Source: Stappia stellulata DSM 5886
GTDB taxonomy: Bacteria; Pseudomonadota; Alphaproteobacteria; Rhizobiales; Stappiaceae
Direction: 5' to 3'
NCBI RefSeq assembly: GCF_000423705.1
Contig: NZ_AUIM01000011.1
Span: forward strand, 124,001-188,000
Length of the DNA stretch: 64,000 nt
Shown one piece after another: positions 43,552-53,508 of the stretch. The stretch's first letter is position 1. Each line of letters begins with the position of its first letter. The position numbers and the translations under genes were made by a program. The notes under the pieces are model-generated. The model did no database searches and was not told the DNA's origin. It was given only the letters and a program-made list of their open reading frames with translations.

Positions 43552-44616
43552 TCAGCGCATCTTCAGGAGGCGGACGGCGCGGCTTGCCTCCATCTGGCTG
43601 AGGGCGGAGAACTCCCGAACGGCGGCGTCCACGGTGTCATCGGCAAGCGACAGCGCCTGACGGCGCGCGGTGGCGACCAACCGAAATGTCGCCTCGCTCA
43701 CGCCCAGCGCCCGGCCGAGAATGACGGCGGTGTCGACGGCGAGCGCATTGAAGGCCCCTTGCGCGATCGCTACCGGGATCTGAAGGATCTGGGCGGCGAG
43801 CCAGCCGAGATCGTCGATCCGCTTCTCACGGGCCAGATGCGTGACCGCCTCGTCCACCTGCATCTTGCCGGCGTTGATCTCGTCGAGCATCAGCTTGCGC
43901 GCCATGCGCGCGCGCCGGGCCACCCCTTTTTCGGCCATATAGGCCTGCTGGGCAATCTCGACGGCATGTTCCATTTCATCCGCCGGCAACTGCGTCACGA
44001 AATCGCCGAGCTTCTTGCGCAGGCCTTCGGTGAGGGCATTGCGGATCTTGCCGGCCATGCTTCCGTCGTCGCGCGAGCGTGCCAGGAGGTTCTGCTGGAC
44101 GGTGGAGTCCTCGCCCCCGCGTTCAAGCAACACCTCGACGCCCTTTTGCGAAAAGGCAGCGCCCTCGTTTCCGGAAATTGCCTGGAGAACCTCGCGACCG
44201 CTCTTCTCGACGATCACCTCCGTCACCGCCTCAGACACGCTCTCGCGCTTGGCAATCGCCATGCGATAGGCGTCGTCGCGATTTTCCGCGATCTCGACGA
44301 GTTGCGCATCGGTGAGTTTCGTCGACTGTTCGAGCACCGGCCGGGCGACCGCGATGGACTCGTCGCTGGCCATCTTGAAGGCAAGGGCTTCCGGCGTTCG
44401 CTCCATCGGCGCCAGCTTCTGCGCCAATTCGGCGCGCACGGACTCCGTCAACTGGTCGAGGATACGTCCGACCACCTCGCAAAAAAGCGCGTTCTCGTCG
44501 TCGCTGGGCGTCTTTTGCACGGCGTCGAAGGCCTGGGTGATTGCCAGGACCAGACCGCGCCGATCGTCGGGAGTTGCGGCAAGGCTGAGAGCCTTGATAC
44601 TTGCGAGGGTTTGCAC
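43552..44616 (-). CDS. DUF2336 domain-containing protein
   Basis: A 354-residue, largely helical soluble protein with HEAT-like repeating helices: DDENALFCEVVGRILDQL, ALAFKMASDESIAVARPVLEQS (core ASDESIAVARPVLEQS) and EVLQAISGNEGAAFSQKGVEVL (core AISGNEGAAFSQKG) are typical of DUF2336. The family is alphaproteobacterial and of unknown function, sometimes linked to two-component or chemotaxis-like systems. GTG 44616, with GAGG nine bases upstream, is preferred to ATG 44673, which would add a basic 19-residue stretch crossing a hairpin. Confidence 0.82.
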   Translation of the reverse strand: MQTLASIKALSLAATPDDRRGLVLAITQAFDAVQKTPSDDENALFCEVVGRILDQLTESVRAELAQKLAPMERTPEALAFKMASDESIAVARPVLEQSTKLTDAQLVEIAENRDDAYRMAIAKRESVSEAVTEVIVEKSGREVLQAISGNEGAAFSQKGVEVLLERGGEDSTVQQNLLARSRDDGSMAGKIRNALTEGLRKKLGDFVTQLPADEMEHAVEIAQQAYMAEKGVARRARMARKLMLDEINAGKMQVDEAVTHLAREKRIDDLGWLAAQILQIPVAIAQGAFNALAVDTAVILGRALGVSEATFRLVATARRQALSLADDTVDAAVREFSALSQMEASRAVRLLKMR

Positions 44617-44636
44617 AGTGGACCTCGTCGGAATTC

Positions 44637-44657
44637 GGTTACGTTTTTGTTGTAACC
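44637..44657. promoter_or_regulatory. Inverted repeat in the DUF2336 leader
   Basis: GGTTAC (44637-44642), nine bases, GTAACC (44652-44657), a perfect dyad 20-41 bases before the GTG start. It may be an operator or a leader hairpin. Confidence 0.45.
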
Positions 44658-44853
44658 GTATTTGGGTCGGCAAAGACGAGGATTCGGTTAATTCGAATAA
44701 ACAAACACAGCTGACCCTGCGCCATGGTAAATATTGGTCATATCCAACGCTCCCCAGACTGTCGCGAACTGCGTTCGCATCCGGAATTTTGCCAGAATCG
44801 CGAGAAGATCCGTTAACGGGCTCACCTGTCCTTCCCGTTCTTGAGCCGGGTCG

Positions 44854-46146
44854 CTAGCGCATCAGGTCAGGCAGGAAAAGCACCAGCCCCGGGATCAGGA
44901 CGATCAGCGCCAGCCGCACGATATCCGCCGCCACGAACGGCAGGATTCCGCGAAAGATCGTCGAGAGCTTCACATCCGGGAGAACCGACTTCAGCACGAA
45001 GACATTCAGTCCCACCGGCGGTGTGATCAGGCTGATCTCGGTCACCACCACGACGACGATGCCGAACCAGACGAGGTCATACCCGAGCGCGGCCATCACG
45101 GGCGCGAAAATGGGCACGGTCAGGAGCACCATGGACAGGCTTTCCAGCACCATGCCGAGGCAGAGATAGACGAGCAGGACCGCGGCCAGGATGACGGGGG
45201 CCGGCAGCTCCGAGGCACGCGCGAACCCGGAGAGCGCCGACGGCAGGCCCGCGATGTTGACGAAATTGGAAAAGATCAGCGCGCCGATCAGCACCATGAA
45301 CATCATCGTCGTCGTCGCGGCGGTATCGGCGAGCGTTTCCAGCAGGCCGCGCAGGGTCAGCCGGCCGCGGGCGAGGGCGATGACGAAGGCACCGCTGGCG
45401 CCGATGCCGGCCGCCTCGGTTGCGGTGAAGGCGCCCGTGTAGATCCCCCCGATCACCAGGACGAACAGGCCGACGATCCCGGCCACCCCCCGCAGCGCCC
45501 TGAACCGGGCGGCATAGGGCATGCGCTCGGCCGGCGGCCCGGCGGCCGGATTGCGCCAGCAGGTGATGCGCACCGCCGCCATGTAGCCCAGGACGCCGAG
45601 GATCCCCGGCACGATACCGGCGATGAACAGCCGCGCGATGTCCTGCTGCGCCGTAACCCCGTAAAGAACCAGAATGACGCTCGGCGGAATGAGAATGCCG
45701 AGCGTGCCGCCTGCGGCGATCACGCCGCTCGCCAGACCGTCGTCGTAGCGGTAGCGGCGCATCTGCGGCAGCGCCACCTTGCCCATGGTCGCGGCGGTGG
45801 CGAGCGACGAGCCGCACACGGCGGAAAAGCCGCCGCAGGCAACCGCCGTCGCCATCGCCAGCCCGCCCCGGCGATGCCCGAGCCAGGCATGGCAGGCAGC
45901 GTAGAGTTCATCCGAGAGCCCCGCGCGCGTCACCAGATTGCCCATCAGGACGAAGAGCGGTACCACCGACAGCGAATAGGACAGACCGGTGTCGAAGGTC
46001 GTCTGGCCGACGATCGCGAGCGCCGGGCCGATGCCGAGCATCGCGGCGAGGCCGAGACCGCCCACGGCGGCCATCGCCATGGCGATGGGCACGCCCGCGA
46101 ACATCACCACGACGAGGATCAGGAGGCCGGGCAACCAGGTTTCCAT
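44854..46146 (-). CDS. TRAP transporter large permease (DctM)
   Basis: A 430-residue, very hydrophobic protein with about 12 helices and the DctM/ion-transporter pattern: FAGVPIAMAMAAVGGLG, GNLVTRAGLSDELY, GILIPPSVILVLYGV and LNVFVLKSV near the end. It carries the transport path driven by the Na+ or H+ gradient. ATG 46146 is used because GGAAG precedes it; a start 9 codons earlier lacks one. Last gene of the minus-strand catabolic operon. Confidence 0.93.
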   Translation of the reverse strand: METWLPGLLILVVVMFAGVPIAMAMAAVGGLGLAAMLGIGPALAIVGQTTFDTGLSYSLSVVPLFVLMGNLVTRAGLSDELYAACHAWLGHRRGGLAMATAVACGGFSAVCGSSLATAATMGKVALPQMRRYRYDDGLASGVIAAGGTLGILIPPSVILVLYGVTAQQDIARLFIAGIVPGILGVLGYMAAVRITCWRNPAAGPPAERMPYAARFRALRGVAGIVGLFVLVIGGIYTGAFTATEAAGIGASGAFVIALARGRLTLRGLLETLADTAATTTMMFMVLIGALIFSNFVNIAGLPSALSGFARASELPAPVILAAVLLVYLCLGMVLESLSMVLLTVPIFAPVMAALGYDLVWFGIVVVVVTEISLITPPVGLNVFVLKSVLPDVKLSTIFRGILPFVAADIVRLALIVLIPGLVLFLPDLMR

Positions 46147-46235
46147 GGAGACAGCTTCCAGTTGGATGCGCACGACAAAGCGGCGCGACAGGGACGGAAG
46201 ACGCTGGCGTGCAGCCGGACCGGACAGTCCGGCGG

Positions 46236-46736
46236 TCAGTCGCGCCGGAAGACAACGACGAGGGCAACCACGGCAGCGATGGCGGTGAAGGCAGCCATCG
46301 TGCCCGCAACCGGGCCGAGCGGGATGCCGAGATAGACGGTCGCGTCGCCATAAGCCATGAAATCGCCCGCGCTCACGAAGAGACGCCAGGCAAGCACCGA
46401 CAGCACCACGGCGGTGACCGCGGCCGCGCCGACGGCGAACCCGCGCCGCACCGGGCCGGGCAGGCGCGCGGTCAAAAGATCGACCGACACATGCTCGCGC
46501 CGCGCGGTCGCGATCGGCAGGCCGACGAAGATCACCAGGGCCAGCAGCACCTCGGTGAGTTCATAGGCCCCGGCCAGCGGCGCGGAGAAAAGCTCGCGCC
46601 CCAACACATCGACGAAGGTCACGACCATCATCGTCAACAGCAGGAGCGAGGCGACAAGGCGCAGCAAAAGGCCCGCCGCCCCGACGAGGCGGCGCATGCC
46701 GCCGCCCCCGTTTTCGCCGAACCTCGGTGCCGTCAT
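46236..46736 (-). CDS. TRAP transporter small permease (DctQ)
   Basis: A 166-residue protein with four helices. VVTFVDVLGRELFSAPLAGAYELTEVLL contains the DctQ core FVDVLGRELFSAPLAGAYEL, and ARREHVSVDLLTARLP is the conserved loop. It forms a complex with DctM. ATG 46736 overlaps the dctP stop (ATGA); the large permease follows after 89 bases. Confidence 0.92.
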   Translation of the reverse strand: MTAPRFGENGGGGMRRLVGAAGLLLRLVASLLLLTMMVVTFVDVLGRELFSAPLAGAYELTEVLLALVIFVGLPIATARREHVSVDLLTARLPGPVRRGFAVGAAAVTAVVLSVLAWRLFVSAGDFMAYGDATVYLGIPLGPVAGTMAAFTAIAAVVALVVVFRRD

Positions 46737-47758
46737 TGCGCTTTGGCGATCTCGGCCCTGAGCATCTCGAGCGCGGCCGCACCGTCGATGTCGCTCTTGG
46801 CAGCCGCATCGATGAAGCCCTGCTCGATGCCGGCCAGCTTCTCCTCGAGCGCGGCGGTCATGGCCGCATCGGCCTGCGAGAGGGCGACGCCCTTGTCGGT
46901 CATCACCTCGGTTCCGGCCGCATCCGCCGCATCCCATGCCTGGCCCGCGAGCCGGGCCATCGCTTCACCGGAGACGCTGTCGATCGCCGCCTTGTCTTCC
47001 TCCGACAGCCCGTCCCAGGTCCGGCGGTTCATGACCACGAAGAACGAGGTGTTATAGAGGCCGCCCGGCACGGAAACGCCGTTGCGCACGACTTCGTCGA
47101 TACGGAAGAAAGGCACGGATTCGGCCGGAAACAGGATGCCGTCGGCAACGCCATTGGCGAGAATTTCATAGACCTGCGGCGAAGGGGCCTGCACGCCGAC
47201 CATGCCGAGCCGGTCGGCAATCTTGGCGACGATGCCGCCGCCGATCCGCATCTTCAGGCCGGAGAGATCGGCGACCGAGGCGACCGGGGTATCGGTGGTG
47301 TAGATCATGCCCGGCCCGTGGGTGAAGACAGTCAACAGCTTGACGCCATTGTGTTCGTCGGCCGTGTCGAGCATGGCCTCCTGTACGCGCCAATAGGCAA
47401 CCGAAAGCGCTTCGGCACTGTCGGAGAGGAACGGTCCCTCGACAATCGGCGTCAGCTTGAACCGGCCCGGCGTGTAGCCGTGCACGCCGTAGCCGACATC
47501 GGCGGCCCCCGAGCGGACCAGGTCGAACTGGGCCGGCGGCTTGCCGATGGGCGAGGTCATGATCTCGACCGTGACCCGGCCGTCGGTCGCCTCGCTCACC
47601 TGCTCGCCCCATGGGGTCAGGATGTCGCGCACGATCGGATGCGACGGCGGCAGCCAGTTGGAAACGCGCAAGGTGGTTTCCGCCGAGGCCGGCAGGGCTG
47701 TCGCGACGGCCGCCCCGATGGCGGCAACACTCGCCAGCACCCCGAAAAATTTCTTCAT
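46733..47758 (-). CDS. TRAP transporter substrate-binding protein (DctP)
   Basis: A 341-residue periplasmic binding protein with a Sec signal ending LPASA-ET (residue 25). It shows LRVSNWLPPSHPI, the hinge region and DLSGLKMRIGGG, whose Arg is the conserved salt-bridge to the ligand carboxylate in TRAP SBPs. So the ligand is probably an organic acid; its identity is unknown. The gene lies 28 bases after the CoA ligase gene, implying that the imported acid feeds these enzymes. Confidence 0.93.
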   Translation of the reverse strand: MKKFFGVLASVAAIGAAVATALPASAETTLRVSNWLPPSHPIVRDILTPWGEQVSEATDGRVTVEIMTSPIGKPPAQFDLVRSGAADVGYGVHGYTPGRFKLTPIVEGPFLSDSAEALSVAYWRVQEAMLDTADEHNGVKLLTVFTHGPGMIYTTDTPVASVADLSGLKMRIGGGIVAKIADRLGMVGVQAPSPQVYEILANGVADGILFPAESVPFFRIDEVVRNGVSVPGGLYNTSFFVVMNRRTWDGLSEEDKAAIDSVSGEAMARLAGQAWDAADAAGTEVMTDKGVALSQADAAMTAALEEKLAGIEQGFIDAAAKSDIDGAAALEMLRAEIAKAQ

Positions 47759-47786
47759 GTTCAATCCCCTCTGCTCGCCCGATTTG

Positions 47787-49325
47787 TCAGGCTTTATTGC
47801 TTGCAGTCCTGTCCTCCAGGGCATCCTCCGCCATTTTGCGGACCTTATCCAGCTGGATCTTGCCCAGCGCATTGCGCGGCAGTGCCGGTACGCAAACCAC
47901 GGCTTTCGGATGCTTGTAGCGCGCCAGGCGCCCGGCGAACTGCGGGAGCAGGGTGGCCTGATCGCATCCCCCCTCCGACACCGGAACCACGACCGCAACC
48001 GGGGTTTCGCCCCATTGCGCATCGGCAACGCCGACGACGGCAGCTTCGCGCACCTGCGGGAAACCGTGAAGGATCCGTTCGATTTCCGCCGGATAGATGT
48101 TCTCGCCGCCCGAGATGATGACGTTCTTCAGCCGGTCGCGGAACCAGTAGACACCCGCCGCATCCGCCTCGGCGAGATCGCCGGTGCGGAACCAGCCGGC
48201 ATGGAAACTCTCGTGCGTCGCTTCCGGCCGGTTCCAGTAGCCGGCGGTGACATTCGGTCCCTTGAGCTCGATCTCGCCGACCTCGCCGACCTCGGCCTCG
48301 CGCCCGTCGAGCATGATGCGGGCGGATGTGTGCAGGCCGGCGCGTCCGATGGCGCCGAACTCCTCCGCCGCGTCGTCGAGGCGCTGGTAGATCGAGACCG
48401 GGCCGGTCTCCGTCGCACCGTAGACCTGAAGCACCGGCACGCCGCGATCGACGAAGCCGCGCATCAGCTCGCGCGGCACATCCGAGGAACCGGTGGCCAC
48501 CAGCCGCAGGCTCGACAGGTCCGCAGCGGACCAGCCGGGGTGCGCCAGGACCGCCGCCAGCGTGGCCGGGACCAGCACGGTGGCGCTCGGCCGGTCGGCG
48601 GCAAGGCTTTTCAGCACATCCTCGGGATGAAACCGGGCATGCAAGATGACGCTCGCGCCGACATAAAGCGCCGGCGTGGTCTGGATGTTCAAGCCGCCGA
48701 CGTGAAACAACGGCAACACCGTCAGCACCGTGTCGGCGCTGGTCAGGCCCTGCATGTGGATGGCGTTGAGCGCATTGGCCTGAACCGCCGCCTGCGTCAG
48801 CACCGCCCCCTTGGGACGGCCGGTCGTGCCCGATGTATAGACCAGAAGCAGCGCATCCCTGGCCGTTCCCTCGCTCGCCTCGTGCCGGATCGGCGTGTCC
48901 CCGGCAGCCATGCGGATGACACCGCCCTCACCGGGATCGGCGCTGACACATTCGGGGAGCGGGCCTTCCGCCGCCATCGCCTCCAGGACCTGCGAAAAGG
49001 CCGGCTGGTGGATCAGCAGGCGCGCCCCGCTGTCGGCCACCGCATGCAGCAACTCGGGCGGCGCCAGCCGCCAGTTGAGGGGCACCAGGATCGCGCCGAG
49101 GCGCGCCGCGGCAAACAGCAGCACCAGCGTGTCCGGAGCATTGGTGCCGAGATAGGCGACCCGGTCTCCCCGGCGCACGCCATGGCGATCGCGCAGCAGA
49201 CCGGCGACGGTCGCGACCGCCCGCGCCATCTCGCGATAGCTCAGCACCATGCCGTCGAACAGCACCGCCGGCTTGTCGGGGGTGAAACGGGCATGCGCTT
49301 CGATCCAGCTGTCGATGGAGGTCAC
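47787..49325 (-). CDS. Class I acyl-CoA ligase (ANL family)
   Basis: A 512-residue AMP-forming CoA ligase. LVYTSGTTGRPKGAVLT is at ~161-177; YGATETGPVS, WFRTGDLAEADAAGVYWFRDR and the Lys in PRNALGKIQLDK (~490) complete the catalytic set. It activates a carboxylic acid as its CoA thioester; long-chain, aromatic or malonate-type substrates all remain possible. The start is GTG 49325, which overlaps the upstream stop by GTGA. It is in the putative operon between the dehydrogenase-like gene and dctP. Confidence 0.9.
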   Translation of the reverse strand: MTSIDSWIEAHARFTPDKPAVLFDGMVLSYREMARAVATVAGLLRDRHGVRRGDRVAYLGTNAPDTLVLLFAAARLGAILVPLNWRLAPPELLHAVADSGARLLIHQPAFSQVLEAMAAEGPLPECVSADPGEGGVIRMAAGDTPIRHEASEGTARDALLLVYTSGTTGRPKGAVLTQAAVQANALNAIHMQGLTSADTVLTVLPLFHVGGLNIQTTPALYVGASVILHARFHPEDVLKSLAADRPSATVLVPATLAAVLAHPGWSAADLSSLRLVATGSSDVPRELMRGFVDRGVPVLQVYGATETGPVSIYQRLDDAAEEFGAIGRAGLHTSARIMLDGREAEVGEVGEIELKGPNVTAGYWNRPEATHESFHAGWFRTGDLAEADAAGVYWFRDRLKNVIISGGENIYPAEIERILHGFPQVREAAVVGVADAQWGETPVAVVVPVSEGGCDQATLLPQFAGRLARYKHPKAVVCVPALPRNALGKIQLDKVRKMAEDALEDRTASNKA

Positions 49326-50593
49326 GCGTCGGTCTCTCCCGGCAGATACAGGCTTTCGCGACCAATTCTGTCGAGACAGATCTCCGCCGTCCAGGGCAAC
49401 ATCAGCGCTCCGCAGCGGCTGTCGCGGTAAAGCCGCTCGAGCGGCAGCGTCTTCAGCATCGACTGTCCCCCGCAAGTCCGCACGGCAAGCTGGCAGATCT
49501 CGTTGGCATTTTCCATCACCGTGTAATGCGCCGCCCAGGCGCGCATCAGCTGCTCGCGCGAGGGATCGGGGCCGGCTTCCGTGATCGCCTGGAACCACAG
49601 CGCCTTGGTCTGCTCCAGCATGAGCTGCATCTGGGCAACGCCGATCTGCTTGGTCGGGAACATCCGCCGCTTGACCGGAGGCAGGCCCGGCCATTCGCCG
49701 CGCAGGTACTTGATCGTGAAGTCGCAGGCGGCCTGGGCGATGCCCATGTAGGTCGGCGACAGCGTCATGAACATGTGCGGCCAGCGGCTTGCCGCCTGAT
49801 AATAGACGCCGCGCGGCATGAGCTGCTCGTGGTCCGGCACGAAGACGTCCTTGAAGATCAGCGTGCGCGAAACCGTGCCGCGCATGCCAAGCGGATCCCA
49901 GTCGCCGACGACCTCGATGCCCTCGGATCGCGCCGGCACGGCGATGTACATCGTGTCGCGGCGCGAGGGCCTTTCGCCCTCCTTCATCTCACCGCAGAGA
50001 ATGCCGTAATAATCCGCGTGGCCCGACAGCGAGGCGAAGATCTTCTTGCCGTTGATCAGCCAGCCGCCGTCGACCCGCTTCGCGCTGGTGGAAAAGGGCA
50101 CCGCGCCGGCCGCCGCCGCGCCGCCTTCGGAGAACGGCTGCGAGTAGATCGCGCCCTCGTCGAGAATGCGTGCGTAGTGGCGCGCCCGCCGCTCCAGATG
50201 CAGCTCGCGCTGGGCCGCACTCATCTCCAGATCGTCTGTCAGCGCGCCGGTCCAAAGGCACGAACACACATGCATGTTCCAGGTCAGCGCGGTCGCGCCG
50301 CAATAACGCCCGATCTCGGCCGCCGTCATCATGTAGGCGCGAAACGGCGCGCCGTGTCCGCCGTTCTCCTTCGGCACGCAGACGCCCAGCAACCCCGCCT
50401 CATGCATGTCGCGGTAGTTTTCCGTCGGGAAGGTCGCTTCGCGATCGTACATCTCCGCACGCGGCGCGAACTTCGACCGTCCGACACGGCGCGCAAGACG
50501 CGTCAGTTCGGCTTCCTGATCCGTGAGCCGGAACGCGTCTGGATCGAAGATCGGCCGGTCGATGTCCGTTTCGTCAGGGATGGCGATGGTCAT
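49322..50593 (-). CDS. Acyl-CoA dehydrogenase-fold flavoprotein, catalytic Glu missing
   Basis: A 423-residue protein with the acyl-CoA dehydrogenase fold: N-terminal helical domain (1-140, with VPKENGGHGAPF), beta domain (about 145-250: YSQPFSEGGAA, GWLINGKKIFAS, DPLGMRGTVSRTL) and C-terminal bundle (GGQSMLKTLPLERLYRDSR). At the usual YEGT position that supplies the catalytic base the sequence is LPWTAEI (399-405), so Glu is replaced by Pro400. The protein may be a dehydrogenase with a base elsewhere, or a flavin-dependent (group D-type) monooxygenase that uses reduced flavin from the divergent reductase. It overlaps the CoA ligase gene by 4 bases. Confidence 0.86.
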   Translation of the reverse strand: MTIAIPDETDIDRPIFDPDAFRLTDQEAELTRLARRVGRSKFAPRAEMYDREATFPTENYRDMHEAGLLGVCVPKENGGHGAPFRAYMMTAAEIGRYCGATALTWNMHVCSCLWTGALTDDLEMSAAQRELHLERRARHYARILDEGAIYSQPFSEGGAAAAGAVPFSTSAKRVDGGWLINGKKIFASLSGHADYYGILCGEMKEGERPSRRDTMYIAVPARSEGIEVVGDWDPLGMRGTVSRTLIFKDVFVPDHEQLMPRGVYYQAASRWPHMFMTLSPTYMGIAQAACDFTIKYLRGEWPGLPPVKRRMFPTKQIGVAQMQLMLEQTKALWFQAITEAGPDPSREQLMRAWAAHYTVMENANEICQLAVRTCGGQSMLKTLPLERLYRDSRCGALMLPWTAEICLDRIGRESLYLPGETDA

Positions 50594-50619
50594 GGAGCGG
50601 GTCCTCTCTGGTGTTTTTT

Positions 50620-51396
50620 CTAACGATCCGTGTCTTTCAGGAAGCTCCGGATTTCTCCGGTGAAGGCGTCGGGGCATTCCAGCGGCGCGAGATGGCCGAT
50701 GCCCTCAAGCTCGACGACGCGCGCGGCCGGGATCTTGTCCGCCATGCGCCGCATCGTCGGTGCGGGCGCGTTGCGGTCCTCGCCGCCGGCGATCAGCAGC
50801 ACCGGCACCGGGATCAGGGGAAGCGCGTCGCGCGCGTCGAAGGTCGCCAGGCAGCGGATCGCCGCGCGATAGGTCGCCTCCGGCACCTCTGACATCGCCG
50901 CGCGCGCCTGGTCCGCGGCCTCGGGCACGGCACGCGATCCGACAAGCCCGGGCACGAATTCGGCCGCGAGATCTGGCATTGTCCGTCCCGCGTCGAGCGG
51001 CGCGAGCCGCTCAATGACGAACTGTTTCTGAAAGCTCCCGTCGCGGCTGCCGAAGGCGGCTGTCGTTGCCGACAGCACAAGCGTGCGCACCCGCTCGGGA
51101 TGGCGCGCGACGAAGGCCTGCGCCAGCATGCCGCCGATGGAATGGCCGACGAGATCGACACGGGCGAAATGCAACCGGTCGAGAAAGGCCAGAAGCGCCG
51201 CCACCAGACCGTCGAAGGTCATCTCGCCGTCGAGGTCGTGTCCGCCATAGCCGGGCAGGTTCCAGCCGATCGCGTCGCAGCGCCGTCCCAGGTCGGCAAT
51301 CTGCGGAGCGAACATCTCCGCCCCCGCGCCGATCCCGTGCAGAAACACCACGGCGCGCGCGCCGCCGGTTGCGCGGATGTGATCTCCGCCGCTCAT
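50620..51396 (-). CDS. Alpha/beta hydrolase (enol-lactonase or deformylase-like)
   Basis: A 258-residue alpha/beta hydrolase with nucleophile Ser86 in LVGHSIGGML, Asp207 in LIAGGEDRNAP and His235 in EGIGHLAPLE; oxyanion-hole HGIGAGAEMF is near residue 20. The fold and size fit 3-oxoadipate enol-lactonase (PcaD) or N-formylmaleamate deformylase (NicD). As it overlaps the NicX-like gene by ATGA, a role directly after ring opening is likely, but this is inference. Confidence 0.88.
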   Translation of the reverse strand: MSGGDHIRATGGARAVVFLHGIGAGAEMFAPQIADLGRRCDAIGWNLPGYGGHDLDGEMTFDGLVAALLAFLDRLHFARVDLVGHSIGGMLAQAFVARHPERVRTLVLSATTAAFGSRDGSFQKQFVIERLAPLDAGRTMPDLAAEFVPGLVGSRAVPEAADQARAAMSEVPEATYRAAIRCLATFDARDALPLIPVPVLLIAGGEDRNAPAPTMRRMADKIPAARVVELEGIGHLAPLECPDAFTGEIRSFLKDTDR

Positions 51397-52439
51397 CGCA
51401 GTGCCTCGATCAGCTCGCCGTCGACGACCACCGCCTCGCCATCGAGCGCGATGGTGCAGCCGCGCACCGGAATGTCGAAATGTCCCCTGGTGAAACGTCC
51501 GGCGAATTCGTTCGCACCGGTCGAAAACAGGAAGTTTCCGGAATAGGCGCGGACTTCCGTTCCGTTGGTCTCGCGCTGGTCGTACATGGCGAGCGCCTCG
51601 TAGCGCGCCGCCTCGTTCATGCCGAAACCGACATGGCTGACCGCATAGGCCTCGCGTTCGCCCCAGGCAGCCAGATAGCGCCGGGTCAGTTCCACATCCG
51701 TCCCGTGACCGTCGATTTGTGTCACGTAATCATCGACGATGGTCAGCCGGACGGGGCTTTCCAGATAGCGCTTGAACGTCAGGTTCACGTCACCCGCATC
51801 GAGCACCAGTGTACCGTTGACGCTGCCGGTCTTCGGGAAACTGACGACGAGACCGGCCGGCCAGTGGGCGACGCTGCCGGGCCGGTCGCACCAGCCCCAG
51901 ACACCGGCGGTCGACGCCCCCGTCATCAAGACGGTGAGATCGGTGCCGGCCTGCGAGGTCACCGTCATGGTCGAACAGCCGCGGAGGCGCCCGACCGCGT
52001 CGCGCACCCGATCCTTGTCGCGGGGCTGCGGCAACAGCCGCTCGAGCGCATCCGGATGCTCGTTGGAAATCATCAGGACCCGCGCGCCGTGCTCCAGAAC
52101 GCGCGGCAGCTCCGGGGCATGAAGCAGGCCTTCGACGGTGAGATCCACGACGAGGCCGCTCGCGGCAAGCGCCGTGATGGCCGCGTCCTGACCGCCCAGC
52201 GCCGCGGAGGCGCCGGTCGATCGCACCGGCACGGGGGCGTCCTGCCGGGGCGTCGGCACCACGACATGAAAGACGGTGGCGCCAAGACGCTGCAGGGCGA
52301 GTTCCGCAATGTGAACGTTGAGCGGGCGGGACTGGGTTTCAGACAGCAGTGCGACGGTCTCGCCGGCGGTCACCTTGCACAGGACGAACACACGCTCGAA
52401 CGCGTCGATCCATTTGCCCTCGATCCGATCGGCAAGCAT
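51393..52439 (-). CDS. NicX-like ring-cleaving Fe(II) dioxygenase (2,5-dihydroxypyridine dioxygenase family)
   Basis: A 348-residue protein. The residue pattern recognised for the NicX family is present: WPAGLVVSFP near His192, a GTLVLDAGDVNLTFKRY segment, AVSHVGFGMN (His269), RAYSGNFLFSTGANEFAG, and GHFDIPVRGC (His320, Asp322). In NicX the iron ligands are His265, His318 and Asp320, so all three have close counterparts. NicX opens 2,5-dihydroxypyridine to N-formylmaleamate with O2. Here the substrate may differ, since other nic enzymes are absent. GGGAGGG precedes the ATG. First gene of the operon. Confidence 0.8.
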   Translation of the reverse strand: MLADRIEGKWIDAFERVFVLCKVTAGETVALLSETQSRPLNVHIAELALQRLGATVFHVVVPTPRQDAPVPVRSTGASAALGGQDAAITALAASGLVVDLTVEGLLHAPELPRVLEHGARVLMISNEHPDALERLLPQPRDKDRVRDAVGRLRGCSTMTVTSQAGTDLTVLMTGASTAGVWGWCDRPGSVAHWPAGLVVSFPKTGSVNGTLVLDAGDVNLTFKRYLESPVRLTIVDDYVTQIDGHGTDVELTRRYLAAWGEREAYAVSHVGFGMNEAARYEALAMYDQRETNGTEVRAYSGNFLFSTGANEFAGRFTRGHFDIPVRGCTIALDGEAVVVDGELIEALR

Positions 52440-52510
52440 GCGAACCCTCCCGAATGTTGTTCCTGGTCATGCTTTTGCGCAGGAACCGAAAAGAACTTGG
52501 AGGATCGTAG

Positions 52511-52524
52511 CAATATCGTTATTG
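52511..52524. promoter_or_regulatory. Probable MarR-type operator in the divergent promoter
   Basis: CAATA (52511-52515), TCGT, TATTG (52520-52524) is a perfect dyad in a strikingly AT-rich patch. On the minus strand TACAAT just upstream is a possible -10 box for the NicX-like gene. A second dyad, TTCCTG (52460-52465) and CAGGAA (52480-52485), lies nearer the NicX-like start codon. Confidence 0.6.
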
Positions 52525-52582
52525 TATGAAAAGGAATATTTTTAGATCTCAATGATCCAGTCGACACACAGGGGGCCGTGCC

Positions 52583-53074
52583 ATGATGACCGACCACCGG
52601 GACTTCCGGACAGCACTGGGCCGTTTCGCCACCGGAGTGACCATCGTCACGACGCTGGATGCCACCGGGCGTCCCGTCGGCCTGACGGCCAATTCCTTCA
52701 ATTCGGTTTCGCTCGATCCGCCGATGGTGCTTTGGAGCCTGGCCCGAAGTTCCCGGAACCTCGGCGCTTTCGAACGCGCGACGCACTACGCGATCAATGT
52801 GCTGGCCTCCGACCAGCGCGCGTTGTCCGACCGTTTCGCACGGCCCGCGCAGGACCGGTTCGCCGACGTCGACTGGTGCCCCGGACTGGGCGGCGTACCG
52901 GTTCTGGCCGGTGTCACGGCCGTGTTCCAGTGCCGCCACGACGCGCAGGTCGAAGGCGGCGATCACATCGTTTTCCTGGGCGCGGTGGAGGCCTTCGAAG
53001 GCCGGGAGCGCGAACCGCTTCTCTACCATGGCGGCCGATACGCGACCCCGCGCTACGCGCCGGCCCGGCCATGA
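52583..53074 (+). CDS. Flavin reductase family protein (HpaC-like)
   Basis: A 163-residue split-barrel flavin reductase. ALGRFATGVTIVTTLDATG at the start, LTANSFNSVSLDPPMVLWSL, FERATHYAINVLASDQ (flavin binding) and the C-terminal LLYHGGRYATP match NAD(P)H:FMN reductases of two-component monooxygenases. It would provide FADH2/FMNH2 to a partner oxygenase; the best candidate nearby is the ACAD-fold protein at 49322-50593. ATG 52583 or 52586. Coupled by ATGA to the MarR gene. Confidence 0.92.
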   Translation: MMTDHRDFRTALGRFATGVTIVTTLDATGRPVGLTANSFNSVSLDPPMVLWSLARSSRNLGAFERATHYAINVLASDQRALSDRFARPAQDRFADVDWCPGLGGVPVLAGVTAVFQCRHDAQVEGGDHIVFLGAVEAFEGREREPLLYHGGRYATPRYAPARP

Positions 53075-53508
53075 CCGGTTCGACCCGTTTCGTCGACGGC
53101 TATCTTCTCTATCTGCTGGCCCGCGCCTCCAGCGTGGCAAGCGCGGAGTTTCATCACGAAGTGCGCGGACAAGGCGTGTCGATCGCTGTCTGGCGCGTCC
53201 TCGCCTCCTTGAAGGGAACAAGGCAGGGCCTGACCGTCGGCGAACTGGCGCGCAGCTGTCTCGCCAACCAGCCGGCGATCTCCAAGACCGTCGACAAGCT
53301 CGTCGCCCAGGGCCTTCTGGAGCGGCATGCCGACGGCGAGGACCGACGGCGGGTCTGGGTCCGCCTCACCGCGGCCGGCGAGACACGCGCCGACGCGCTG
53401 GTCGACCGGGCAAAGGCCCACCAGGATCGCCTGCTCGAGGCGCTCGGACCGGACAATGCCGACATTCTCAAGACCGCGCTGACGCAGCTGATCGACCGCG
53501 CGCCCTGA
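53071..53508 (+). CDS. MarR family transcriptional regulator
   Basis: A 145-residue winged-helix regulator. VWRVLASLKGTRQGLTVGELA leads into the recognition helix ANQPAISKTVDKLVAQGLLER and the wing DRRRVWVRLT; helices at both ends form the dimer. MarR proteins usually repress the divergent genes and are released by the aromatic substrate; NicR of nicotinate degradation is one. The palindrome at 52511-52524 is a likely target. Confidence 0.92.
   Translation: MTGSTRFVDGYLLYLLARASSVASAEFHHEVRGQGVSIAVWRVLASLKGTRQGLTVGELARSCLANQPAISKTVDKLVAQGLLERHADGEDRRRVWVRLTAAGETRADALVDRAKAHQDRLLEALGPDNADILKTALTQLIDRAP

Follow-up and report, generated by a model that had tools for sequence, protein, structure and literature searches.

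NicX from Pseudomonas putida opens a dihydroxypyridine ring between C5, which bears a hydroxyl, and C6, and releases N-formylmaleamate. Glu177 binds N1 and O1 of the dihydroxypyridine and His189 binds O1 (excerpts of PMC7910607). Two aerobic routes for anthranilate are also relevant here: the CoA- and oxygen-dependent pathway of Azoarcus evansii, with 2-aminobenzoyl-CoA monooxygenase/reductase, and the conversion of anthranilate to 5-hydroxyanthranilate and then gentisate in Nocardia opaca (both from an excerpt of PMC4539516). In the excerpt of a 2018 review that we used, the enzyme and the gene of the 5-hydroxyanthranilate route are called unreported (PMC6221969). We analyzed a 64,000-nucleotide stretch (the window) of the genome of Stappia stellulata DSM 5886, which is a 4.6 Mb assembly in 12 contigs. 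The window contains an operon that encodes a NicX-like protein, an alpha/beta hydrolase (abh), a flavoprotein with the acyl-CoA dehydrogenase (ACAD) fold, a CoA ligase, and a TRAP importer (dctPQM); these genes diverge from a flavin reductase and a MarR-family regulator. The operon is a real, conserved catabolic unit of unassigned pathway. We tentatively propose that it serves to degrade an aminobenzoate in an aerobic, CoA-dependent way. The most likely substrate is anthranilate or a compound very close to it, such as could form from tryptophan via kynureninase.

The NicX-like protein and its substrate pocket

The NicX-like protein does not match any Pfam or NCBIfam model at E = 0.001, and it is the only protein of the operon and its divergent partners whose family was not assigned by Pfam. 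phmmer matches it to P. putida NicX (7cn3; E = 1.7e-59; about 36% identity). The AlphaFold model (mean pLDDT of 84.6) has a TM score of 0.89 to NicX and of 0.57 or less to M29 peptidases. Given these scores, and with no match to an M29 family in Pfam, the protein is of the NicX type, as had been suggested by an earlier reading of this DNA from its sequence alone, and is not an M29 peptidase. That reading had also picked out His269, His320, and Asp322 as iron ligands. These three are correct, and the fourth ligand of NicX, Ser302, is retained as Ser306.

We surveyed the residues of this protein across 165 loci (160 distinct sequences; raw counts, with no kinship correction). The four iron ligands (His/Ser/His/Asp) are invariant in all 165. 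The window protein also keeps His105, His189, Trp190, and Arg293 of NicX, and His189 is retained in 158 of the loci. Two other positions differ: Glu177 of NicX is replaced by Val180 and Glu308 is replaced by Phe. Across the survey, the position of Glu177 is Val or Ile in 127 loci, Gly in 14, Asn in 10, Thr in 7, Ala in 1, Ser in 1, and Glu or Gln in only 5. No locus with the ACAD gene retains Glu177, and the gene is missing from all five Glu/Gln loci. The Glu/Gln clade includes loci with nicF/nicE-type genes; as for such neighbors, L181 and L182 each have an isochorismatase-family gene next to the NicX-like gene, and L181 has an Asp/Glu racemase as well. In a tree with 69 rows, a branch supported at 100/99 separates the Glu/Gln group from the clade of the window protein, but the program warned that long branches meet at this deep split. 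In the same tree, the Thr, Asn, and Gly-plus-Tyr189 types each form one group, Val requires two changes, and Gly requires four.

The residue at position 177 tracks the neighboring activating enzyme. A CoA ligase of the operon's type lies within 6 kb of the gene in 117/127 Val/Ile loci and 6/14 Gly loci, and in none of the Asn (0/10), Thr (0/7), or Glu/Gln (0/5) loci. A glutamine-synthetase-like ligase adjoins the gene in all 7 Thr loci and in 1 of the 14 Gly loci. This would be expected if the residue faces the part of the substrate that has changed, although common descent alone could also explain it. We view the protein as a putative NicX-type enzyme with a changed pocket.

The Thr-type loci bear on the nature of the substrate. 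In Ensifer, the NicX-like gene is followed by genes for the ACAD-like protein, the hydrolase, a TetR regulator, a glutamine-synthetase-family protein, a flavin reductase, and an APC permease. The Aminobacter locus is similar, with the reductase upstream; a gentisate/5-aminosalicylate-type dioxygenase is nearby, below both curated cut-offs. Two loci (L209 and L210) additionally contain a GATase and a TctA importer. Aniline is handled by a gamma-glutamyl ligase together with an amidotransferase, so the pairing of the glutamine-synthetase-like ligase with a GATase points to amine chemistry. Gamma-glutamylanilide is mentioned in an excerpt of PMC4539516.

Some relatives of the protein have other neighbors. 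In another genome of the genus (G076), there is a second NicX-like gene (L069, 8479-15730; 50% identical), whose two substrate positions are occupied by Gly and Tyr. It is near a hydrolase, a FAD_binding_3-type hydroxylase, a MarR regulator, and a similar TRAP importer, with no CoA ligase or ACAD gene adjoining, which suggests a parallel pathway. In L088 and L089, NicX-like clusters with Gly at position 177 are next to an MttB-family gene; L088 also has an M81-family gene (L089 by similarity). In L038, the NicX-like frame has one in-frame TGA (G396:C13:13395-14429), which may reflect gene decay, an error in sequencing, or recoding.

Conservation and linkage to kynurenine genes

At E = 1e-30, the NicX-like protein is found in 28 of the 87 genomes of its family, including 14/14 genomes of its genus (this genome counted). 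In 22 genomes of the family (this one included), the protein is at least 67% identical, and in all 22 the genes abh, acad, and marR adjoin it; the reductase adjoins it in 20. All of the wide loci that we fetched around family members with this type of gene set (12/12) contain dctP, dctQ, and dctM. Because abh, acad, and marR accompany the NicX-like protein in all 22 genomes, the cluster is not due to chance. The sequence-only reading had proposed one co-inherited catabolic unit, with co-occurrence in other genomes as the check, and this was borne out.

The gene set extends beyond the family. The NicX-like protein matches 30 of 385 genomes of the class at E = 1e-70, and the ACAD protein is in 18 of 398 genomes from a sample of the phylum; we fetched 9 of these, and the NicX-like gene was present in 9/9. 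A scan of named genomes gave at least 545 relatives among at least 592 pattern matches. At the loci of the best 80 of these relatives (some contigs are short, and Bradyrhizobium predominates), we found acad in 72, the ligase in 70, abh in 67, the reductase in 47, marR in 22, and dctP in 10. From these counts, the core is the NicX-like protein, the hydrolase, the ACAD-like protein, and the ligase, and the importer is exchangeable. The importers do differ by lineage: TRAP; a binding protein next to ABC genes in Bradyrhizobium, with SsuA as its best-matching family (below cut-off); Peripla_BP_6 in L081; APC; and TctA. The genera with the gene set include Stappia, Roseibium, Bradyrhizobium, and others. 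In L077 (7889-9967) and Bradyrhizobium clusters, two more genes lie between the ligase and nicX: one has an octopine-dehydrogenase domain, and the other belongs to the 3-hydroxyacyl-CoA-dehydrogenase family (PRK08269, over cut-off).

Among plasmids, 95 records match the ACAD protein, and 7 of these are at 50% identity or more; among the 40 matches listed, the next relatives are at 30% or less. Six of the 7 have the NicX-like gene next to the ACAD gene; the remaining one is an orphan at 57% identity on a plasmid from a Dolichospermum metagenome-assembled genome (L183, 7995-9242), without the rest of the cluster; the same stretch has a Tn3-family transposase and XisH/XisI genes.

The genomic context points to anthranilate. 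Tryptophan 2,3-dioxygenase (TDO), arylformamidase (KynB), and kynureninase (KynU), without a kynurenine hydroxylase, yield anthranilate. We sampled 200 genomes of a family outside the class, which looks like Burkholderiaceae and which we call the kynurenine-linked family. The ACAD gene is in 34 of them, from 2 of 25 genera. Kynureninase is over its cut-off in 140 of the 200, including all 34 with the ACAD gene, and in 34/34 it is on the same contig, 5.2-6.3 kb from the ACAD gene. In all 21 of the 34 that we fetched (20 plus G766), kynB, kynU, and TDO adjoin a marR-reductase-nicX-abh-acad-ligase cassette. At L202, the sole locus scanned with the curated models, all three names are over the cut-offs (arylformamidase, kynureninase, and TDO next to the cassette of G766). 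Similarly, in Bradyrhizobium sp. S69, kynU, TDO, and kynB (all over cut-off) are among the cluster's genes, 2.7-5.7 kb from nicX. In S. stellulata's genus, kynU and TDO are present in 14/14 genomes, at a distance from the operon or on a different contig.

Another alphaproteobacterium (G101) has an operon of the window's own type in which nicX-abh-acad-ligase-dctPQM continues into a TDO-family gene, an enoyl-CoA hydratase (PRK08138, over cut-off), and a 3-oxoadipyl-CoA thiolase (PRK08131, 655 bits versus a cut-off of 622). Anthranilate minus formate has six carbons, the same as 3-oxoadipate. A TDO-family gene is also upstream in L174.

We compared 44 loci, namely the 21 from the kynurenine-linked family and 23 from family f193 (some of the f193 loci are short, and housekeeping-like neighbors in them, judged by eye from translations, were set aside). 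The NicX-like gene is in 39 of the 44 and the reductase is in 43. In the kynurenine-linked family, antA (TIGR03228, over cut-off) is in 0/34 genomes with the cassette versus 9/166 without it, which is not a significant exclusion (p = 0.36). In 20 kynurenine loci without the cassette, we found no further anthranilate gene of our query set beside the kyn genes; the remaining genes of these loci were unscanned. The reductases beside kyn genes without the cassette (L306-L325) are related to the window's reductase, with 58-93% identity among the 12 compared.

Proposed pathway and alternatives

We propose the following reactions, their order, the position of hydroxylation, and the substrate from gene content, conservation, residues, predicted folds, and linkage. 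The substrate would be imported by the TRAP system or would arise from tryptophan, and the ligase would convert it to an aryl-CoA. The ACAD-like protein, with reduced flavin from the reductase, would add a hydroxyl to the ring, with the para position relative to the amino group as the probable site, to give 5-hydroxyanthraniloyl-CoA. The NicX-like iron enzyme would then break the bond adjoining the new hydroxyl; Val180 in place of Glu would leave room for a carboxyl or thioester where NicX holds the pyridine nitrogen. By analogy to NicX, 5-hydroxyanthranilate or its CoA ester would become a seven-carbon enamine with a formyl group. The alpha/beta hydrolase, like NicD in the step that follows NicX, would take off the formyl group; alternatively, it might be a thioesterase. 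Loss of formate would leave six carbons, and loss of ammonia would give an unsaturated 3-oxoadipate skeleton, which could enter the 3-oxoadipyl-CoA thiolase step; this would fit the thiolase in the operon of G101. MarR would control both divergent units.

The earlier reading had CoA activation as the last step. It is more likely the first, since the operon of G101 (one genome) continues to 3-oxoadipyl-CoA thiolase. It is possible, and we say this with more reserve than for the substrate class, that these genes represent a further aerobic anthranilate pathway that proceeds by a CoA ester, hydroxylation by an ACAD-fold two-component monooxygenase, cleavage of a benzene (not a pyridine) ring by a NicX-type iron dioxygenase, deformylation, and 3-oxoadipyl-CoA. 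In related versions, the CoA ester would give way to a gamma-glutamyl group attached to the amine. Like the A. evansii pathway, it would depend on CoA and oxygen and might have the same or a similar substrate, but the key PRK08255-type enzyme of that pathway is not in this operon, which instead has a ring-cleavage-type dioxygenase and an ACAD-like flavoprotein. As in N. opaca, a 5-hydroxylated anthranilate is a proposed intermediate, but ring cleavage here would bypass gentisate.

Several observations weigh against our proposal. According to excerpts of PMC7910607, the rings of phenol, hydroquinone, and catechol are not opened by NicX. No such CoA ligase is near the Asn-type loci, and 5 of the 44 loci have the ACAD gene without the NicX-like gene (four with the reductase and one with ACAD alone). 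The hydrolase shares only about 24% identity with the hydrolases of two NicX loci (L181 and L182). No kyn genes adjoin in 23/23 f193 loci (some of which are short), the TDO-family genes of G101 and L174 are below cut-off, and the link to the thiolase comes from one genome (L293 has a 38% thiolase besides). Also, the reductase is not clearly dedicated to the cassette. Among the 78 contig loci, it is 1.5 kb or less from nicX in only 11; 35 of the 47 contig loci with a reductase have a second, HsaA-like ACAD, which the reductase adjoins, as in Bradyrhizobium; and in the kynurenine-linked family, it is beside the kyn genes in 15 of the 20 cassette-free kyn loci fetched. Because the reductase adjoins kyn genes or another ACAD elsewhere, its tie to the cassette is uncertain outside S. 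stellulata's own family and f193. Finally, anthranilate may already be handled by another locus in this genome.

That locus (L332, 3538-11653) encodes PRK08255, a benzoate-CoA-ligase-family protein, and the enoyl-CoA hydratase PRK08258, and it is near trpE. (By eye, L332 also holds a RidA-like protein and a regulator.) PRK08255 is a model for a bifunctional salicylyl-CoA 5-hydroxylase/oxidoreductase, and we take 2-aminobenzoyl-CoA monooxygenase/reductase to be of this type. So, these bacteria probably handle anthraniloyl- or salicyl-CoA, and the operon need not be the sole route. PRK08255 could be the main anthranilate route, with the operon as a salvage or side branch for a related compound, such as by-product 5-hydroxyanthraniloyl-CoA, 3- or 5-hydroxyanthranilate, or N-acylated anthranilate. 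PRK08255 is present in 14/14 genomes of the genus and, in the kynurenine-linked family, is over cut-off in 34/34 genomes with the cassette versus 62/166 others (Fisher p = 4e-13). The two even share a locus in 37 of the 165 cases, 3.6-8.5 kb from nicX (31 of these are among the 78 contig loci, mostly Bradyrhizobium), which speaks for our proposal as well. However, this co-occurrence follows genus, since 8 of the 9 cassette-free congeners fetched have PRK08255, and this counts against a salvage role as well as against our proposal. Under a shortage of NADH, a PRK08255-type enzyme reportedly releases 5-hydroxyanthraniloyl-CoA (excerpt of PMC3534580), which is a suggestive link between PRK08255 and the operon. 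But a hydroxylase-type flavoprotein and an importer would be superfluous for a CoA ester that is already hydroxylated, and we consider a salvage role unlikely.

We are similarly doubtful that the same chemistry acts on another aromatic acid of tryptophan or plant origin, such as kynurenate, an indole carboxylate, salicylate, or a substituted benzoate. The ligase's best solved relatives, with equal scores, are 8weu and 8wev, which are named fatty-acyl-CoA synthase and feruloyl-CoA synthetase; the PRK08255 model is named for salicylyl-CoA; and the importers vary between lineages, so a different acid is conceivable. On the other hand, the kynU that adjoins the cassette yields anthranilate, and the glutamine-synthetase-like variant points to an amine.

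In our view, it is quite unlikely that the ACAD-like protein works as a genuine dehydrogenase or as a reductase in CoA-ester oxidation without ring hydroxylation, with the flavin reductase as an unrelated neighbor. The protein matches acyl-CoA dehydrogenase domains in Pfam, and no curated monooxygenase model is over its cut-off (HsaA, DszC, and hydroxyphenylacetate models are far below). Its predicted structure (pLDDT of 85.8) matches ACAD-fold proteins, mostly acyl-CoA dehydrogenases, and the reductase often has other neighbors. But the top fold match is shared, with equal scores, by a protein titled putative acyl-CoA dehydrogenase and one titled flavin-containing monooxygenase. Also, Pro400 is at what we take to be the position of the catalytic base of acyl-CoA dehydrogenases, and it is invariant in 23/23 aligned proteins (chosen from 100 found), so this flavoprotein lacks the dehydrogenase base. 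The absence of the catalytic Glu and the fold are shared with ACAD-fold two-component monooxygenases (HsaA, p-hydroxyphenylacetate 3-hydroxylase, and DszC), even though the window protein does not pass the cut-offs of their curated models. A flavin reductase gene is nearby in many loci, with the limits given above. The reductase adjoins the NicX-like gene in most of the family loci, as given above, and is within 1.5 kb of it in 10/10 Asn-type loci.

The earlier reading had favored an N-heterocyclic acid that is hydroxylated and then opened by a relative of NicX. The NicX fold, the four iron ligands, His105, and His189 are all retained; NicX is specific for dihydroxypyridine (excerpts of PMC7910607); and the dioxygenase gene adjoins an alpha/beta hydrolase gene, which recalls NicX and NicD. 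Nevertheless, a heterocyclic ring is unsupported because the residue that binds the ring nitrogen and oxygen is replaced, as it is in every locus with the ACAD gene, and the genome context points to anthranilate, which has a benzene ring; Glu or Gln occurs in the clade that includes nicF/nicE-type loci. We consider a pyridine-type acid very unlikely. As that reading noted, homologs of nicC, nicE, and nicF are absent from the nine genes of the locus (the whole genome was not searched), and the partners are the ACAD-like protein and CoA ligase instead, which supports its view that the pathway differs from the nicotinate route. Nicotinate and picolinate were judged unlikely from position 177 and the neighboring genes. 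We also considered pyrrole-2-carboxylate and the indole-3-acetate (iac/iad) route; the latter, which was prompted by the combination of ACAD, flavin reductase, and MarR, is still a possibility.

Gene layout and implications

All nine genes are open frames with plausible starts (Table 1), and the arrangement of seven minus-strand genes that diverge from the reductase and marR is as first described. The 4-base overlaps (nicX/abh, acad/ligase, dctP/dctQ, and reductase/marR) also agree with that description, as do the gaps, which measure 26, 28, and 62 or 89 bases. The models for DctP, DctQ, and DctM are all over cut-off. The conserved Arg of DctP that had been pointed out is Arg171 of the precursor, which aligns with an Arg of 4p56. 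The ligand of 4p56 is presumably mandelate, and import of an aromatic acid by the TRAP system, as had been suggested, is plausible. In the divergent region, we viewed 22 loci: a block (52520-52542) is found again upstream of nicX throughout these loci of the genus and, in a diverged form, of the family, and the 22 loci have no common perfect palindrome. Immediately downstream of dctM is a gene for a DUF2336 protein (window 43552-44673), which adjoins the operon in part of the genus.

Table 1. Features of the operon and its divergent partners (window coordinates)
Feature	Coordinates	Strand	Comments
nicX-like, predicted NicX-like Fe(II) ring-cleavage dioxygenase, 348 aa	51393..52439	-	His269, Ser306, His320, Asp322; Val180 for NicX Glu177
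abh, alpha/beta hydrolase, 258 aa	50620..51396	-	closest NCBIfam is PcaD type, below cut-off; proposed deformylase or thioesterase
acad, ACAD-fold flavoprotein, 423 aa	49322..50593	-	Pro400 at catalytic Glu position; proposed two-component hydroxylase
AMP-forming acid-CoA ligase, 512 aa, GTG start	47787..49325	-	Pfam; best solved relatives 8weu, 8wev
dctP, TRAP solute-binding protein	46733..47758	-	Pfam; nearest solved relative 4p56
dctQ, small TRAP permease	46236..46736	-	Pfam
dctM, large TRAP permease	44854..46146 (or start 46173)	-	Pfam
flavin reductase, 163 aa	52583..53074	+	Pfam
marR, MarR-family regulator, 145 aa	53071..53508	+	Pfam
divergent intergenic region, candidate operator/promoter	52440..52582		recurring block 52520-52542

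The way in which position 177 tracks the activating enzyme offers a clean test by structure. If our proposal is correct, then these are genes for a route from anthranilate through hydroxyanthranilate, and the NicX family would extend from pyridines to benzene rings. It would also suggest how several genera, including Stappia, Roseibium, Bradyrhizobium, and others, consume anthranilate.

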